Positions 4,317-63,821 of a DNA stretch of 64,000 bases are shown in pieces. Source of the DNA: Owenia fusiformis (taxonomy: Eukaryota; Annelida; Polychaeta; Sabellida; Oweniidae); the NCBI GenBank assembly GCA_903813345.2, contig CAIIXF020000007.1:23361564-23425563 (forward strand). Direction: 5' to 3'. The notes beneath the pieces are model-generated. The model did no database searches. It was not told where the DNA came from and saw only the letters and a list, made by a program, of their open reading frames with translations. How positions within the stretch are numbered: the first letter of the stretch is position 1; each line of letters starts with the position of its first letter. Both the position numbers and the translations under genes were made by a program.

Positions 4317-5135
4317 TTCTAAATTCAAAAGAAATTTAGAAATCCACCTGTCACCTTCTGTTTCAGTACTACTTTGAGATCTCGTAACTGATTAACATGA
4401 TTATAATAATCAAAAATGAATTCATTATCAAACGAGGTCTCCGTGAAAACCAAGTCGGAAAAATAGGCCGACATATTTGAGGTATACAGGTATATTGTTT
4501 GTCTCAAGTGTTATCGATTATAGTCTAGCAAAAGAAAGGCTATTGATGAAAACCTCGCGCCCGATGATCGGCAGTGTTGTAGAGTGAAAATCAGTAAAGA
4601 GGGTCACAATGACATTTTTAAGTTTCATATTCAGTGCAATATAATATTGATATATTGGACGGTATTGCCGACCATGTTGTTAAATCAACCCCGCGTTGAC
4701 CAAGCGTTCTGTGTTGAATACTATTTGTCGTTTAAGGGTCAATAATCTTGCACTAAGTCGGTTTTGCTCGCTTCAATATAGAGTTAATATACAACTACGT
4801 CTCTGTTGACTAAGGTCATATTGTGTTATCAAGTTATAGTATTTCATCAGCCGTTCTAGTAAAGAATTCAACACATGTTGAAGTTGGATGGACGGGTACA
4901 TGATATAGAAGGCTACATGTGGATGATTGCTTGATTATGACATCATATGCTTGTATCGTATCCAAACAACGAAACACAAACGACGGACAAAGTATTGCAT
5001 CATCGTTTAGTCAGACTGATTATTTCGATAATGATGAAATTGGTGGTGTATTTAAATAATGGGGAAGTACCGATCTGAGGCACAAGCTGTACTTCCAATA
5101 CACACAGTGTGAATATTGCCTTTGATAGAGATAAC
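4317..5135. other. Intergenic / upstream region of the ankyrin gene
   Basis: No gene is seen. The stretch ends just before the ankyrin gene. No clear TATA box was identified. An AG at 5106-5107 after a moderately pyrimidine-rich run could be a splice acceptor, so an upstream exon is possible. Confidence 0.5.
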
Positions 5136-7247
5136 ATGGAGAAGGAAATTAAAAGTGCAATTGTTATGAAGGACGAGGACAAATTGAAGTCTATCCTGAG
5201 CAATCTCGACACATGTCCATGTAAAACATTGCTATGGGCTATGCAAGAATACTTTATAGAGCTAAGCTTAGCAACTATTAAGACATTAATACACAAAGGT
5301 GCAGATATCAATGCTAGGGATAATCAAGGTAAAACTGTGCTAATGATAGCTATAGAGATAAAATATACCCCATGTGCTGAGCTCCTCATATACTATGGGG
5401 CAGACATACATGTCATTGATAACTCCGGGCAGACAGCCCTCAACCACATCACAGACTTCTCACCAGCGTATCAACACCTGTATTGTTTACTCACAATATT
5501 AGGGGCCAATGACAAACAGTACCAACATCTATCTGTCTTACTACATACAATCGCAACGGAGGGACAAATTAAACAAGCGTGTGAAAAAATTGACCTTATC
5601 AAAAGCTTGTCAAAACTCCGTTTGAAATATCGAGTGAGAACATTTTTATTTGAAAACTGTGCGAGGACGAGAGACGATTACAGAAAATATATTACAGAGC
5701 TCGTGGATGTTGGTCATTTGCCTCCCGGACTGAAATCATTCTTATTATTTGTGGATGACATAAGCGAGATGATGGCTATTGTGCGGGGGAGTGTTGAAGG
5801 TAATCCATTAATACACCTGATACTTCCCACTCTAGAGGCTGTTTACAATGTTTAAAATGAAAGGACGTGATCCTACTGTATTACCAATAATATATATTGT
5901 GAAAGCTACATCAATATCATTAGCAATCAAAACATTAACCCAGAAGCATTAAACACTTATACAGTACATGTTATTGTATACTTAAGTAACGTAATAGAAG
6001 ATTACATGAGTCTACTATACTTTGATTTCATGGAAACAAAATAATCGTTATTACGTTTTAACTGCATGATTTATGTGTAAAATAAATACTAAACTTAGTA
6101 GGCCTGCCACAAATTCTTTAATATCAGTTTGATATTTAAACCTTTTTTACAAACGCAATGCACAATAGAACCACAGTATGACTAAAGTATTTAAAATAAT
6201 GTGCAAGGGTTTCTGCTATTTGTATCAATTTTGAAAGGGATAATGATGTTATTAACATGATTTTATATTTTAGGCTGGTTCTTATATAGTAGGGATCCTT
6301 CTATATTCGACGACTTTGACAATTTCCAAGACAGTGAACCACTTGGTACTATAGGCGGGTTAGTTGCTCTTGTTGATCCTGATACAAACAATACCAGTCA
6401 AGATGAAATCTTTAGTCTGTCTGCGAATCATCAAATATTACCAGACTCATTCGGCCACCATAGAGAATATGTGACTTGGTCAGAGGTTGATTATCAACGA
6501 GAAAGTGTTTTAACAATTGGATCTGAAGTACCTTATCGAATACCACTTAAATTTGATGAGGATGACGACCTGGAGAATGATTCTCCTGATGATATGAACT
6601 TTGACGACATTGATTTAGATCGCAATGAACACCCAGAACAGATTCCCATAATGTCATTTGAATCCGAGGGTATAGATGAAACAGAAAGTGATACCGATGA
6701 TGAAGAGGAACCAACGTTTGATATAGCATGCATTAGAGTTGAGAACGAAACAATTAGGTCCCAATACAGAGTCTGTTCACTACATGAGTGTTGTAGTTCC
6801 TCTCCCAAAAAAGAACTTGTTGGTTCGACCGTTATGAAACTAGGATCGGGTCCAAACGCTACAAAAGGGAGGTTATTGGCCATTAACGCTTCAGGGGAAG
6901 TTAAAGTTGGTCGTAAAACTGTGTTCGTCAACAATGTTGCAGTCATTTGTGCTCTAGATGACATCGATCTTGATGCAGCATTTTCTAATAAAGGAGATGG
7001 CGGTACAATCGTCTGCATACAGGACACAATCATCAGAAGGGATAACATTGAAGCCCATTGTCCTCATTGCTTCATGATATTTGCTGGTTGGGATAAATAT
7101 AACCAGTACAATAAATGGGGACGCCCTGTGACTTTAGCATTCTCTTTATATGATTCCTTGAAAATATTAGAAAGCCAGGTTAAGGAGAACCATGATGTAA
7201 CTAGGAAACATTTTAGGTTATCTTGTTGTAGCTTTGCATTGCAATGA
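5136..7247 (+). CDS. Ankyrin-repeat protein fused to a serine-protease-like domain (catalytic Ser replaced)
   Basis: Two exons, join 5136-5799 and 6274-7247, predict 545 residues. Exon 1 ends GAAG|GTAAT with one base of a codon. The next exon follows TTTTATATTTTAG and starts with two bases, giving a Gly codon and an open frame throughout. Without splicing the frame stops at 5855. The ATG at 5136 (AACATGG) is the first good start; an upstream in-frame GTG is unlikely. Residues ~31-118 hold ankyrin repeats (TLIHKGADINARDNQGKTVL, LLIYYGADIHVIDNSGQTAL). A helical linker follows. From ~245 the protein resembles chymotrypsin-fold peptidases: LGTIGGLVALVD, FSLSANHQI (His274), an acidic insert ~315-367, FDIACIRV (Asp371), GSGPNATKGRLL and KGDGGTIVCI. 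GDSG is expected in the last motif; Gly464 sits at the Ser position, so a pseudoprotease is inferred. Probably cytosolic, since no signal peptide is seen. Function unknown. Confidence 0.75.
5800..6273 (+). other. Intron of the ankyrin/protease-like gene
   Basis: A 474-bp intron from GTAATCC to TTTTAG. The phase is 1 on both sides. Stops in all frames within it separate the two coding blocks. Nothing else was recognised in it. Confidence 0.7.
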
Positions 7248-55270: not shown

Positions 55271-55384
55271 CGGTGCAGTATGAGACTCGTAATCCTTGAT
55301 TTTCAAACATCCGGTAGGTCAAAAATTTGAATTAACGGTCGAAGTTAGGACCGCGTTACAAATATATATTTAAAAATATACTCG

Positions 55385-55889
55385 AATGTCTATATCCAGG
55401 AGTGTATTGTGGCATTGCGTGTGGTGACATAATGTACTGACCGTATTTCTATGTCTATTTCCAGGAGTGTATTGTGGCATTGCATTGGACGACATAATGT
55501 GCTGGCCGTATTTATATTTTAATGTCTATTTCCAGGAGTGTATTGTGGCACTGTGTGGGATGACATAATGTGCTGACCGTATTTATATTTGAATGTCTAT
55601 TTCCAGGAGTGTATTGTGGTACTGTGTGGGATGACATAATGTGCTGACCGTATTTATACTTGAATGTCTATTTCCAGGAGTAATTGTGGCATTGCGTGTG
55701 GCGACATAATGTGCTGACCGTATTTATACTTGAATGTCTATTTCCAGGAGTATATTGTGGCATTGCGTGGAATGACATAATGTGCTGACCGTATTTATAG
55801 TTGAATGTCTATTTCCAGGAGTGTATTGTGGCATTGCGTGGAATGAGATGATGTGCTGACCGTATTTATACTTGAATGTCTATTTCCAG
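55385..55889 (+). repeat. Tandem array of 3' splice sites plus exon 2 start (seven upstream copies)
   Basis: Units of 65-71 bp (mostly exactly 71) repeat TGTCTATTTCCAG|GAGTG, TATTGTGGCATTGCGTGG and GACATAATGTGCTG. The first exon-like base falls at 55400, 55465, 55536, 55607, 55678, 55748 and 55819, followed by the genuine exon at 55890. Each unit has a pyrimidine tract, CAG acceptor and ~42 nt homologous to the exon 2 start. In six of seven copies the unit's frame ends at a stop within this exon-like part: TGA in place of the Trp codon in copies 1, 3, 4, 6 and 7, and a TAA after a one-base deletion in copy 5. Copy 2 keeps TGG but meets a stop in copy 3. Every upstream acceptor therefore yields a truncated ectodomain. 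Confidence 0.9.
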
Positions 55890-56003
55890 GAGTGTATTGT
55901 GGCATTGCGTGGGACGACATAATGTGCTGGCCGTATACAAAGGCTGGGGTCATGGCTAAACAACGATGTCCAAAATACATCAATGGATTTGCTGATACAG
56001 ACG
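55890..56003 (+). CDS. PTH-receptor-like class B GPCR, ectodomain exon 2
   Basis: 114 nt, phase 1 in and phase 1 out; G from the previous exon plus GA gives Gly. It encodes VYCGIAWDDIMCWPYTKAG followed by QRCPKYINGF. CxxxWDxxxCWP is the hallmark of the class B hormone-binding domain and supplies cysteines 2 and 3; RCP supplies cysteine 4. The Asp of WDD is the family's structural core residue. The donor is GACG|GTAATG. The acceptor at 55888-55889 is the last of eight near-identical acceptors, and the only one leading into a complete open exon. A CTGAC at 55856-55860, in the preceding unit, lies 30 nt upstream and fits the branch-point consensus. Confidence 0.92.
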
Positions 56004-57459: not shown

Positions 57460-57602
57460 CATATGCCACAAGACAGTGTACGGAAAATGGAACGTGGTTC
57501 ATTCACAGCGAACATAACAAGACATGGACAAACTTCAGTGAATGCTACGTGGGTCATAGGATTCCTACAGAAAGTACATTTCGAGTGTCAAAGATTATCA
57601 TT
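57460..57602 (+). CDS. PTH-receptor-like class B GPCR, ectodomain exon 3
   Basis: 143 nt, phase 1 in (G+CA gives Ala) and phase 0 out. It encodes AYATRQCTENGTWFIHSEHN then KTWTNFSECYV. This matches the family pattern A.R.C...G.W......N.TW.NYSEC, and supplies cysteines 5 and 6. Sequons NGT, NKT and NFS are present; the latter two are common in this family. The rest (GHRIPTESTFRVSKIII) is the stalk before TM1. The acceptor is TTTCTTTTGTAG and the donor ATT|GTAAGT. With exons 1 and 2 this completes the six-cysteine ligand-binding domain. Confidence 0.92.
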
Positions 57603-59147
57603 GTAAGTATTTGTAAATTCGAATATGCATTTTCAACAATTAAACAATAAGCGCTAGATCTGGAGGAAGTGTAAATATAAGTAGCATATAAGCTGCACAA
57701 ACACTATTTTGGTCAGTTCTAGACAATACGTGCTTTTTAGTAGTGAATGTGACATCCACAAACATTTCTCGGAATCAAAATAATGTCAAGATGTGTTAAA
57801 TGGCAATCATCATGATCTTACTTCTAAGACTGAATTAATCGACTTGTGCACGTTTCCCTCACATATCATTGTTCAATGTACGCAAAGAAATAATGAGTGA
57901 AGGTAGAAAACAGTTGAAAAGAAAGCAACTACGTGCATGTTACACCATGTGATTATATTGAAATTGTAAAATCATACTAAGCTACTGAACTAATCGTCAA
58001 CGTACTTAAAATTATAAAAGGATGGGCAAAAACATTTTTATTGATTTTTCGATGGCAAAAATAAATCCATGGGGATTTCTGGATAACGGTTAAGAGACAC
58101 TAGGGGACTGACTCTGTATCCAAGCCATCATTCACAGCAGCACCATGTGAGCCCAGTACCCAGGGTACTATTTTTTGCAAATGCATACTAGCCTCGACGT
58201 GTCCATCCATAATTAAATTACTGCGGTTCGACAACAATTTGCTACACATTCCTTAGAACAGACAATCACACACTTCATATAACATACAATCATTGATTGG
58301 ACCACGATGAACCACGATGATTCAATAGTTGTATCCAATTGATTTGACAGGCTCGATTTGACAAACATCTTAAGCTAGTTAACCCACCGAATAAGGTTTC
58401 GTAGGAATAATGAGAAGCCGTACCTCCGTTCGGGTGGTTGATGATAACTCAAATACCTGTCATCGAATTGACATAACAAGGAATGACATGAGCCAGAAAT
58501 ATTCTAAAATTGAAACACTTTTTTGTTGGCCTGCTCACTATAATCGGATTCTCTCTTTAATATAGGCTAAAGCTTTATGACTATAGAGATTCTCCTGAAT
58601 ACGATATTTTCAAATTGGCCATTCAGTTCAAAATTTGTATTATAGCTTAGGTCGTCTTTACTAATTTGGTCCATATTGCCGATGATTTGCAATCTCTCCA
58701 AAATTTCACCCAAAATCAAATTTAAAACTGACATTTTAATATTACTAAATTCATCTATATAAAAACTTTTCTTGTTTTTGAAAAAAATTGAGAATCGGGT
58801 GGTTTTTTAAACATATCATCTTAATTCAAAATGGCCAGAATTTTTGGGCTTAAAGCTCGCGTTTAATGCCTTACTTCCAACGTTTGACTTATTTTAGAAA
58901 ATTATTTAAAGGTTAACACTATGACTAAGGTCTATCAAACAACAAGAACGCATCGTTTGTTTTTATAGAATAATGGGTAATGACGCGCTATGGGAGTTCA
59001 TCCCGATGTGTTTTTCAATTGATGGTAAGTTTATTCGCTGAAGTGAGGAATTAATTCAACTGTAACTTCTTCAAAGTTCATTGTTAGCCGAGTGATATAT
59101 TAGTCTCTGGCTAATCTAAACACATAATCTGAATACATCATGCCTAA

Positions 59148-60510: not shown

Positions 60511-61849
60511 AGTATGATGTGGGATAGACAAAATTCAATTTCGAGGTCCACGGGTAATATGATGGTCATCATAGGAAAACTATAACTGGTTTCGATCCAT
60601 ATTTCTTAACCACTGATAAAATAAATTCGGGTTTCTCGCTATTTTGGGAGCTAACTTTTTGTCAAGAAAAATTGGTAGTCGTACAAACCCTATTATAGAC
60701 CAGTGAATCAATTGTTCTAGTTATTGTGACATAACATATCCTACTTGCATTACGTAGCTGTGTGTAGTATAGTAGTCGCTGTTTGAATCAATTCACGACA
60801 TCAATCATGGACATTATATTGAACGATACCCGATTCTTCAAAATAAAATAAATGGTACTTATTTTTGAAATAATTTTTTATACATATTTATTTTTTATTT
60901 CAGAGAAGAAAAAATAAGTTAAAGCAATTGCAAAAAAACAATTACAGCGATCAAATAATTTAATTTAGAATGAAACGTATATATCCGAACACCTCTCTCA
61001 TCCAAAGACCTCTTAATGTGAACACTTTGATCAAATTATCTACGTTCAAAAGTTGTCCCACCTTCGCACATATCAAGCCCTGAAATATGACACCTGGTTA
61101 ACCGATGGCAATGGCGTTCGGTTTAGATAGGTTTAACTGTAGCCCTATTAGGATTACAGATGTTATATTTATACATAGGCAATAACGCATGATAATTTTA
61201 GACAATTTATAAATTTTGTAGACAAGAAAGAAATGATTTTACCTTCACCCATTTTCTCTTTTGTTTGAATATTGACGGCGTTAAATGACTTAAACAAATT
61301 GAATTTATGAACGTGCCTTTTTCCATGGCAAGGATGACCAAATTCGATCATAGATCTATTTTCTTTAGAAACCAAGAACCAATTGACATTCTCTTGCCAG
61401 ATACAAGATGACATAAACTACCCTAGGAGATGTTTACAGGACTGTACTGTCACTTGCCACTATTCGGTGATCGTTGATTATTATCTAGTCTCGATTAATG
61501 TCAAACACCTTGACATCTCATGATTCAAAAGGAGTATGCAGACAAAGTGATTGATCAATTTGCCGATCAATGTAAAAATAATGAATGAGAACGGTAATTG
61601 AGTGTTAAAGTATTGTAGGAAATATGTCGACATCGTATACGTGCGGACTGCAATAACGGCAATGACGTCACTTTGTTATTGTCTTCGTGACAGATATTAT
61701 ATATAGAGAGATACATTGATCGATATATTTGAACTTAATTTATTATTTCTTAGTTCGTAGTTATTCACTTATATTTAAATTGGCTGATTCGTTTGATTAC
61801 TTTATGTTTTTTGAATCTTGTCATTATAAAGGTACTGTACCATTATAAA

Positions 61850-62305
61850 TTACAAGTATATTAATGTTATCCTATATACATTTGTCGTTGCAGGACCACA
61901 TAGACAAACTACAATTAATGTTATTCCTATATACATTGTTGCAGGACCACATAGACTAACTACAATTAATGTTTTTTCCTATATACGTTGTTACAGGACC
62001 ACATAGACAAACTACAATTGATTTTATTCCTTTATTTGTTGTTACAGGACCACATAGACAAACTACAATTGATTTTATTCCTTTATTTGTTGTTACAGGA
62101 CCACATAGACAAACTACAATTGATTTTATTCCTTTATTTGTTGGTACAGGACCACATAGACAAACTGCAATTAATGTTATTCCTATATACGTTGTTGCAG
62201 GACCACACAGACAAACTACAATTGATTTGCATTATGTAATTACTCTATCTATCGTTACAAGATCACATATAGATACTGAAAATGAGAATATATTTGTTGT
62301 TGTAG
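61850..62305 (+). repeat. Tandem array of 3' splice sites plus exon 4 start (eight upstream copies)
   Basis: The unit is 51 bp: GACCACATAGACAAACTACA, ATTGATTTTATTCC and TTTATTTGTTGTTACAG. Exon-like starts fall at 61894, 61945, 61997, 62048, 62099, 62150 and 62201 (spacing 51, 52, 51, 51, 51, 51). A degenerate copy at about 62261 is followed by the genuine exon at 62306. Each has a pyrimidine-rich tract and AG before GACCACA. Because 51 is divisible by three, copies 61997-62201 share one open frame (repeating DHIDKLQLILFLYLLLQ) ending at TAA 62237-62239. The two leftmost copies stop at TAG-ACTAA-type changes (GAC TAA), and the degenerate one at TGA. The frame at 61969-62505 is a shadow. Confidence 0.92.
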
Positions 62306-62400
62306 GACCACATAGACCGATTACAATTGATGTACAATACGGGTTATGGTCTCTCACTCGTGTCCCTTGTTATAGCTATCATAATCATGCTTTATTTCAA
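62306..62400 (+). CDS. PTH-receptor-like class B GPCR, exon 4 (TM1)
   Basis: 95 nt, phase 0 in and phase 2 out. It starts DHIDRLQLMYNTGYG and continues LSLVSLVIAIIIMLYF, matching the family's FDRL..IYTVGYSxSLxSLxxAxxIL.YF in TM1. The acceptor is TTGTTGTTGTAG (62304-62305) and the donor CAA|GTAAGT. The first eight codons are repeated in the upstream array with Lys for Arg in the DRL position. Only this copy continues into TM1. The true exon ends in two bases of a codon completed by exon 5 (AA+A, Lys). Confidence 0.92.
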
Positions 62401-63134
62401 GTAAGTAAATGTGTAATGTGGATGTTAACAAATGTTATCGTTGCAATGGTCCAATCTCAAACTACATCAAACGATAACTTCACATACGAGACAACATGTG
62501 TGTAACGAATCAATCTAAAGACTAGTAATATGGCAATAAATGTAGTAATAATCATAGATTGCAACATTTAAAAATATTCAGCCAGCCTAATGACATGTAT
62601 CTGTTTACATCAGCTAACGAGGATTGATGTATTAACAATCAAATTGATAACTGTCTCCATAAATGTCGTTTTATTGTTTAATTCATACTTATTTTAATAA
62701 AGTAGAAAATTAATAATGCATTTTTATGACGTTTACATAGCTGTACGATAATTTAATATGTCAACCAGTATTCTTTATATAACATTGGATCTAGGGTCCA
62801 ATGTCCTCTGCATAGCATGGTTAAGTAGACAAGTGTTTGTAACCCCCGGCACACTCGTTTTATTCACCACATTTCGTCACGCATTACAAACTCATAGGTC
62901 AGAACTTTTTCATTGTATTCTAAAACACTTCAGAATCTGTAAGAATAGCATGTAATGTCACATATTCCTTTCATTGGAGGAATCTCCTTACAGATAAATA
63001 GAATATCTCAACCGAATAATCTACCAGAAGAATGAAGTGCAAATTCCTTTCATTTTAAGAAACTCTACAGTCAGAAACACAGAACATACCAAAATGGAAC
63101 AAGAGAAATGAAATATATATGCCTGTCATTTCAG
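62401..63134 (+). other. Receptor intron 4, ending in a decayed acceptor array
   Basis: 734 bp. The 65-codon frame at 62758-62955 is not supported as an exon. From 62967 onward it carries diverged copies of the exon 5 acceptor region (separate entry). Confidence 0.6.
62967..63134 (+). repeat. Decayed tandem copies of the exon 5 acceptor region
   Basis: Two imperfect copies precede the real one. CCTTTCATTGGAGGAATCTC lies at 62967, CCTTTCATTTTAAGAAACTC at 63046, and the genuine CCTGTCATTTCAGAAAACTC at 63122; the period is 76-79 bp. Downstream words also align: AAACACAGAACATACC against AAACACAGTACATATC, and AGAATGAA against AGAAATGAA. The AG acceptor is degraded in both upstream copies (GGAGG, TTAAG). 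By eye the similarity is ~65-75%, so this array is less certain than the other two. Confidence 0.55.
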
Positions 63135-63303
63135 AAAACTCCATTGCCAGAGAAACACAGTACATATCAACTTGTTCCTATCATTTAGCCTAAGAGCTGC
63201 TGTGTCAATATTCAAAGACAATGCTATGGAAAACGGTGCCTTCTTTCCAAATGATTTTCATATCAACCCATATGGCAGACGTGTCTTCAACCCAAATATA
63301 TCA
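63135..63303 (+). CDS. PTH-receptor-like class B GPCR, exon 5 (TM2 and first extracellular loop)
   Basis: 169 nt, phase 2 in and phase 0 out. It encodes KLHCQRNTVHINLFLSFSLR then AAVSIFKDNAMENGAFF. The family has LHCTRNxIHxHxFLSFxLRA here; the His in VHINLF is the conserved TM2 His. RAAVSIFKD strongly resembles the RAVSIFVKD of parathyroid hormone receptors. It differs from what I recall of CRF, PDF and calcitonin-type receptors, and is the main reason for the subtype call. The remaining ~25 residues form extracellular loop 1, of moderate length like vertebrate PTH receptors. The acceptor is TGTCATTTCAG and the donor TCA|GTATGT. Confidence 0.92.
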
Positions 63304-63664: not shown

Positions 63665-63821
63665 CACTGGGAATGTAAACTGCTGTTCTCCATCCTGCAT
63701 TATTCATTGGCAGCGAACTATATGTGGATCTTTGTCGAGGCTCTTTACCTCCACATGCTTATATTTGTCAGTGTCTTTTCTGACAGGCATGGTATCAAGT
63801 GGTACGTCGTCATCGGATGGT
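63665..63821 (+). CDS. PTH-receptor-like class B GPCR, exon 6 (TM3 to start of TM4)
   Basis: 157 nt, phase 0 in and phase 1 out (TGG T|GTAAGT). It encodes HWECKLLFSILHYSLAANYM then WIFVEALYLHMLIFVSVFSD and GIKWYVVIGW. The Cys of WECK is the TM3 residue that pairs with extracellular loop 2. W.FVEALYLH holds the class B TM3 Glu and Tyr of the conserved polar network. IKWYVVIGW begins TM4. The gene continues beyond the window: TM4-TM7 and the tail need more exons to the right. Confidence 0.93.

Follow-up and report, generated by a model that had tools for sequence, protein, structure and literature searches.

Exon 4 of a gene in the annelid Owenia fusiformis, which is, judged from its predicted exons, a class B (secretin-family), PTH-receptor-like GPCR gene, is preceded by a tandem array that repeats its own 3' splice site and exon start in seven clean copies and a degenerate eighth. 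We interpret this array as a minisatellite of the "mirage" type, in which tandem duplication across the intron-exon boundary would have been followed by spread, the upstream copies being decoys of near-neutral effect, and we give this reading a probability of roughly 0.8. To us it looks more like the ordinary growth of a repeat than like a special device.

The acceptor array and its receptor gene

Within the window (the whole stretch of DNA analysed, 64,000 nucleotides), Tandem Repeats Finder (TRF) detected the array with 7.1 copies, 90% matches and a score of 501, against a top score of 76 in 1000 dinucleotide shuffles of positions 61700-62450, which is far beyond a chance origin (Table 1). 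Each unit comprises the end of the intron, the acceptor and the first ~25 bases of exon 4. In the clean copies the AG acceptor is followed by GACCACA[TC]AGAC or its one-base variant, and the ~25 exon-like bases of each clean unit differ from the start of exon 4 at 3 to 5 of 25 positions. A sequence-only reading of the window had counted eight copies, seven of them clean and one degenerate, and both this count and the eight positions it named (the acceptors of decoy copies 1 to 7 and the start of exon 4) were confirmed. Its unit length of 51 bp agrees with the TRF period, but the spacings between successive acceptors from 61894 through 62306 also include other values (51, 52, 51, 51, 51, 51, 61 and 44). 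The position it gave as the donor of exon 3, 57602, is the last base of that exon, the GT being at 57603. Its account of the origin, a duplication of the acceptor together with the exon start, is supported by the span of the units.

We scanned the assembly (498,259,871 bases in 525 contigs) for the literal unit string quoted in that reading, TTGTTACAG/GACCACATAGAC joined at the splice junction. It is present in the array but exact in just three copies, which are its only occurrences in the 498 Mb. The intron part of the other clean copies ends in GTTGCAG or GGTACAG, and the acceptor of the true exon 4 is TTGTAG, not TTACAG. Exon 4 with its flanks occurs once in the assembly.

The units starting at 62048 and 62099 are identical, the only such pair among the seven clean units; more generally, and as far as so few units allow a judgement, the inner units are homogenised and the outer and last ones have diverged. 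In the seven clean units, 21/25 columns of the exon-derived part are invariant vs 11/26 columns of the intron-derived part (Fisher p 0.003), and without the two outermost units the comparison becomes 22/25 vs 18/26 (p 0.17), copies of one array not being independent. The greater uniformity of the exon-derived part could thus hint at constraint, a hint weakened once the outermost units are dropped.

These features are consistent with the following course of events. A short segment across the intron-3/exon-4 boundary would have been duplicated in tandem, possibly through microhomology between the ATTACAA at 61849-61855 (+ strand) in the upstream flank and the ATTACAA at 62320 inside exon 4. The array would then have been enlarged by slippage or unequal exchange, and the identity of the two inner units fits such a later spread inside the array. 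The authentic boundary would have been retained at the downstream end, so that the last acceptor still yields the normal exon, probably in most transcripts, and the upstream copies would be decoys without coding use. Because the true boundary is kept downstream, the duplication would be tolerated, and an acceptor could in this way be duplicated where a duplication within an exon could not.

Exon 4 encodes TM1 (Pfam 7tm_2, E 5.4e-5), and its top match among PDB structures is the PTH1 receptor (parathyroid hormone receptor; E 1.7e-4). The exons for TM4 to TM7 continue, by our reading of the translations, in an adjoining locus (L084). The intron after the TM6 exon holds a 42-bp array (L084:5224-5619), which begins ~55 bases past that exon, an apparent inverted counterpart (6103-6399) and another array (5661-6073) between those two. 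Elsewhere in the genome, many 7tm_2 matches cover the domain from end to end within a single long open frame (e.g. 1212 and 1230 codons), and many of the 7tm_2 receptors of Owenia fusiformis look intronless across the domain. Other open frames were noted by eye in the window: a pair of overlapping open frames resembling the reverse transcriptase of non-LTR elements (413-1623) and a 258-codon open frame resembling ankyrin repeats (5079-5855).

Table 1. Positions in the window of the predicted receptor exons, the two boundary arrays and the decoy copies before exon 4.
Feature	Positions	Strand	Remarks
First array of the gene, 71-bp units across the exon-2 acceptor	55377..55936	+	TRF score 868, period 71
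Exon 2, extracellular domain, begins VYCGIAWDDIMCWPY	55890..56003	+	
Exon 3, extracellular domain	57460..57602	+	Donor GT at 57603
Tandem array, 51-bp units (intron end, acceptor, start of exon 4)	61860..62223	+	TRF score 501
Decoy copy 1, exon-derived part after TTGCAG	61894..61918	+	Acceptor score 10.3
Decoy copy 2, in-frame TAA after 4 codons	61945..61969	+	Acceptor score 8.7
Decoy copy 3	61997..62021	+	Acceptor score 8.0
Decoy copy 4, unit identical to copy 5	62048..62072	+	Acceptor score 11.3
Decoy copy 5, unit identical to copy 4	62099..62123	+	Acceptor score 11.3
Decoy copy 6, GGTACAG acceptor	62150..62174	+	Acceptor score 6.5
Decoy copy 7, then in-frame TAA 62237-62239	62201..62225	+	Acceptor score 9.4
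Degenerate decoy copy 8, acceptor AAG then ATCACATATAGA	62262..62286	+	Acceptor score 1.1
Exon 4, TM1, DHIDRLQLMYNTGYGLSLVSLVIAIIIMLYF plus 2 bases	62306..62400	+	7tm_2; donor GTAAGT at 62401
Exon 5, TM2	63135..63303	+	7tm_2 match C7:23424687-23424797, E 1e-5
Exon 6, TM3 to start of TM4	63665..63821	+	7tm_2 match C7:23425222-23425386, E 7.8e-12

The same gene carries a second array, whose 71-bp units span the acceptor of exon 2, with decoy acceptors at 55400, 55465, 55536, 55607, 55678, 55748 and 55819 upstream of the true one at 55890. The sequence-only reading had reported this array too, as unrelated in sequence to that of exon 4; the array is there, and the lack of relation between the units is judged by inspection alone. 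Since the two units differ, the arrays arose separately, as had been proposed. Eight acceptors of the gene were tested (the TM4 acceptor and exon 1 being left out) and two of them have arrays. Donor-side copies were found at 0/8 tested donors, five of which (E3, E4, E5, TM4 and TM6) had been placed one base off, a negligible shift in a 60-base window.

Predicted consequences of splicing to the decoys

Translation from the upstream acceptors of exon 4 runs into a stop after 4 to 80 codons in 8/8 cases, short of the true exon, and translation from those of exon 2 meets one after 9 to 33 codons in 7/7 cases (the exon being taken as phase 1). Since every decoy reaches a stop, the decoys cannot give receptor. 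Acceptors were scored with a splice-site matrix, a rough one built from 41 sampled acceptors that were themselves chosen by a pyrimidine-rich score (training median 10.7). On this scale the clean decoys of exon 4 score 6.5-11.3 and the true site 9.4, three of the seven outscoring it and one tying with it; at exon 2 the decoys range from 7.0 to 12.0, with 10.4 for the true site. By their sequence, most decoys would thus be usable acceptors whose use would be unproductive, and some mis-splicing to them is likely, because most score like real ones.

These same figures could be taken to mean that the array acts as a rheostat, in which the decoys compete with the true acceptor, the resulting early stops probably lead to nonsense-mediated decay, and copy number sets the amount of receptor. 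Lievers et al. 2001 reportedly link, in the title of their paper, the VNTR of the human CBS gene with the activity of the enzyme, a possible precedent. Against a rheostat, the "mirage" minisatellites of amphioxus are described, in the available parts of the reports, as not disturbing splicing (PMC3087553, PMC3902484), and boundary arrays are no commoner in our sample than arrays in introns (see below). We therefore hold a rheostat to be quite unlikely and prefer near-neutral decoys.

It is very unlikely that the array is an artefact of assembly. Tandem repeats are error-prone in assembly, and we have a single assembly in which exon 4 occurs once; but the units differ from one another, with one identical pair among seven, and similar arrays stand at several other loci, so that an assembly error would have affected no more than the number of copies. 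That the decoys serve as genuine alternative starts of the exon, lengthening the receptor by repeats of a 17-residue peptide, has next to no probability: five of them (61997 to 62201) share the frame of exon 4 and stay open for 12 to 80 codons, but all five meet a common TAA at 62237-62239 ahead of the exon, which refutes the idea for this assembly, and the outermost two clean decoys are out of frame and have early stops.

Boundary copies elsewhere in the genome

We assembled a census of loci from searches with 7tm_2, myosin and Eryth_link_C (L003-L063), leaving out single-frame genes. Boundaries were given to 65 exon matches, of which 42 acceptors and 51 donors passed score limits of 2.5 and 2.0 respectively, and a hit was defined as a nearby copy of the boundary with at least 8 bases on each side. 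Local copies were found for 3/42 acceptors (L049, L055 and L061) and 1/51 donors (L060), and the shuffled loci gave 0/372. The total of 4/93 boundaries compares with 96/1088 intron-side control windows (Fisher p 0.17), a control that used the boundary positions before correction of L028:258 and L043:2343, whose windows are not independent where they share an array and may in some cases fall in neighbouring exons or intergenic DNA. Exon-side control windows gave 4/279, below the boundary rate, the difference not being significant (p 0.11). Boundaries are not enriched for such copies relative to introns; as arrays are no commoner at boundaries than in introns, nothing points to selection for arrays at boundaries. 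Arrays with a period of at least 15 and at least 2.5 copies cover 9626/209574 bases of L003-L063, overlapping loci not being merged.

The clearest parallel to the exon-4 array is at L049, where a myosin acceptor has a 61-bp array with three full blastn copies. L055 is a myosin acceptor with one degenerate boundary copy, L060 a donor with scattered boundary copies and L061 a weak hit (39 bp, 77%, E 8e-4). Three further arrays came from looking at arrays and were for this reason kept out of the strict rate. At L028:1351-1504, an acceptor array of 43-bp units (99%) directly precedes an exon in a different 7tm_2 gene; its units contain only a few bases of exon, too short an exon part for the strict rate (boundary at 1503). 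At L056:173-338, the end of an apparent myosin exon has a 41-bp donor array of four copies (98% matches), each with CAG/GTATGT, and L063 has a donor array of at least three copies; the exons of both are not among the domain matches. Multi-copy acceptor arrays thus amount to 1/42 in the sample (L049), or 2/42 counting L028.

This count bears on the view, put forward in the sequence-only reading, that an independent second array within one gene can hardly be put down to a single accident. The reading had itself named arrays standing at random before many exons as an observation contrary to it, and with 3/42 acceptors and 1/51 donors vs 96/1088 intron-side windows the sample goes partly against the claim, which we do not uphold. 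The probability of arrays at two or more of eight acceptors is 0.107, 0.052 or 0.014 at a rate of 3, 2 or 1 in 42, for a receptor gene whose arrays were themselves the reason for its selection. To find two is mildly unusual for one chosen gene and unremarkable genome-wide, and this recurrence is not a strong argument for a common cause.

A wider proposal would be that boundary minisatellites are common (~2-7% of sampled acceptors) and form a fast-changing pool of decoys, and that the two arrays of the receptor gene set a copy-number-dependent level of unproductive splicing that varies between individuals; we regard this as improbable.

The searches also returned two clusters of matches. In ~8 kb at C9:37986009-37994334, twelve myosin-head matches fall on one stretch of the profile (~positions 18-84), a pattern that suggests a muscle-type myosin gene with a large cassette of alternative exons. 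On C6, three matches to Eryth_link_C, a family presumably named for the annelid erythrocruorin linker, lie within 15 kb (best E 5e-7).

Comparison with known systems

We searched the titles and abstracts of the open-access literature for boundary-spanning minisatellites in Owenia or other annelids and found no report. The exon-4 array is real and belongs to a known kind; for its lineage we found no report in that literature. If such minisatellites are as frequent as our sample suggests, they are no lancelet oddity, and a second lineage would provide numerous natural experiments on spliceosomal choice among near-identical acceptors, as well as raw material for intron gain by duplication.

The comparisons that follow draw on the available parts of the papers cited. 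The closest system is that of the amphioxus mirages, described for Adh3, the globins BflGb6 and BflGb9, PGBD5 and troponin C, with length instability and somatic variation reported (PMC3087553, PMC3902484) and with a model of intron gain by duplication proposed from the globins (PMC3087553). As described there, mirages are minisatellite-like tandem copies across an intron-exon boundary that keep decoy AG/GT signals, are homogenised internally with divergent edges and occur in both acceptor and donor types. The exon-4 array likewise leaves the authentic boundary intact at its end, the exon starting at 62306 reading into TM1. The differences are the host, an annelid and not a cephalochordate, and the presence of two arrays, with 51- and 71-bp units, in one receptor gene.

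In humans, the 31-bp VNTR of the cystathionine beta-synthase (CBS) gene, c.1444_1467+7(16_21) (PMC2630376), has a unit that, by its name, joins 24 exon and 7 intron bases and so repeats a splice signal; unlike the exon-4 array, it is on the donor side, and its polymorphism is shown in people. Internal tandem repeats at exon-intron boundaries have also been described for human genes in segmental duplications (PMC2812944). There too, minisatellite expansion occurs at boundaries and is able to change splicing, but that screen, as far as its available text goes, was limited to paralogs with variable repeats; it had support from transcripts and reported novel introns. Finally, a potato gene gained an intron via a duplication across an intron-exon boundary (PMC4974935), which, like the units described here, copies the branch site, tract and acceptor; in potato, one duplication made a new intron, whereas the exon-4 array is known as a repeat only.
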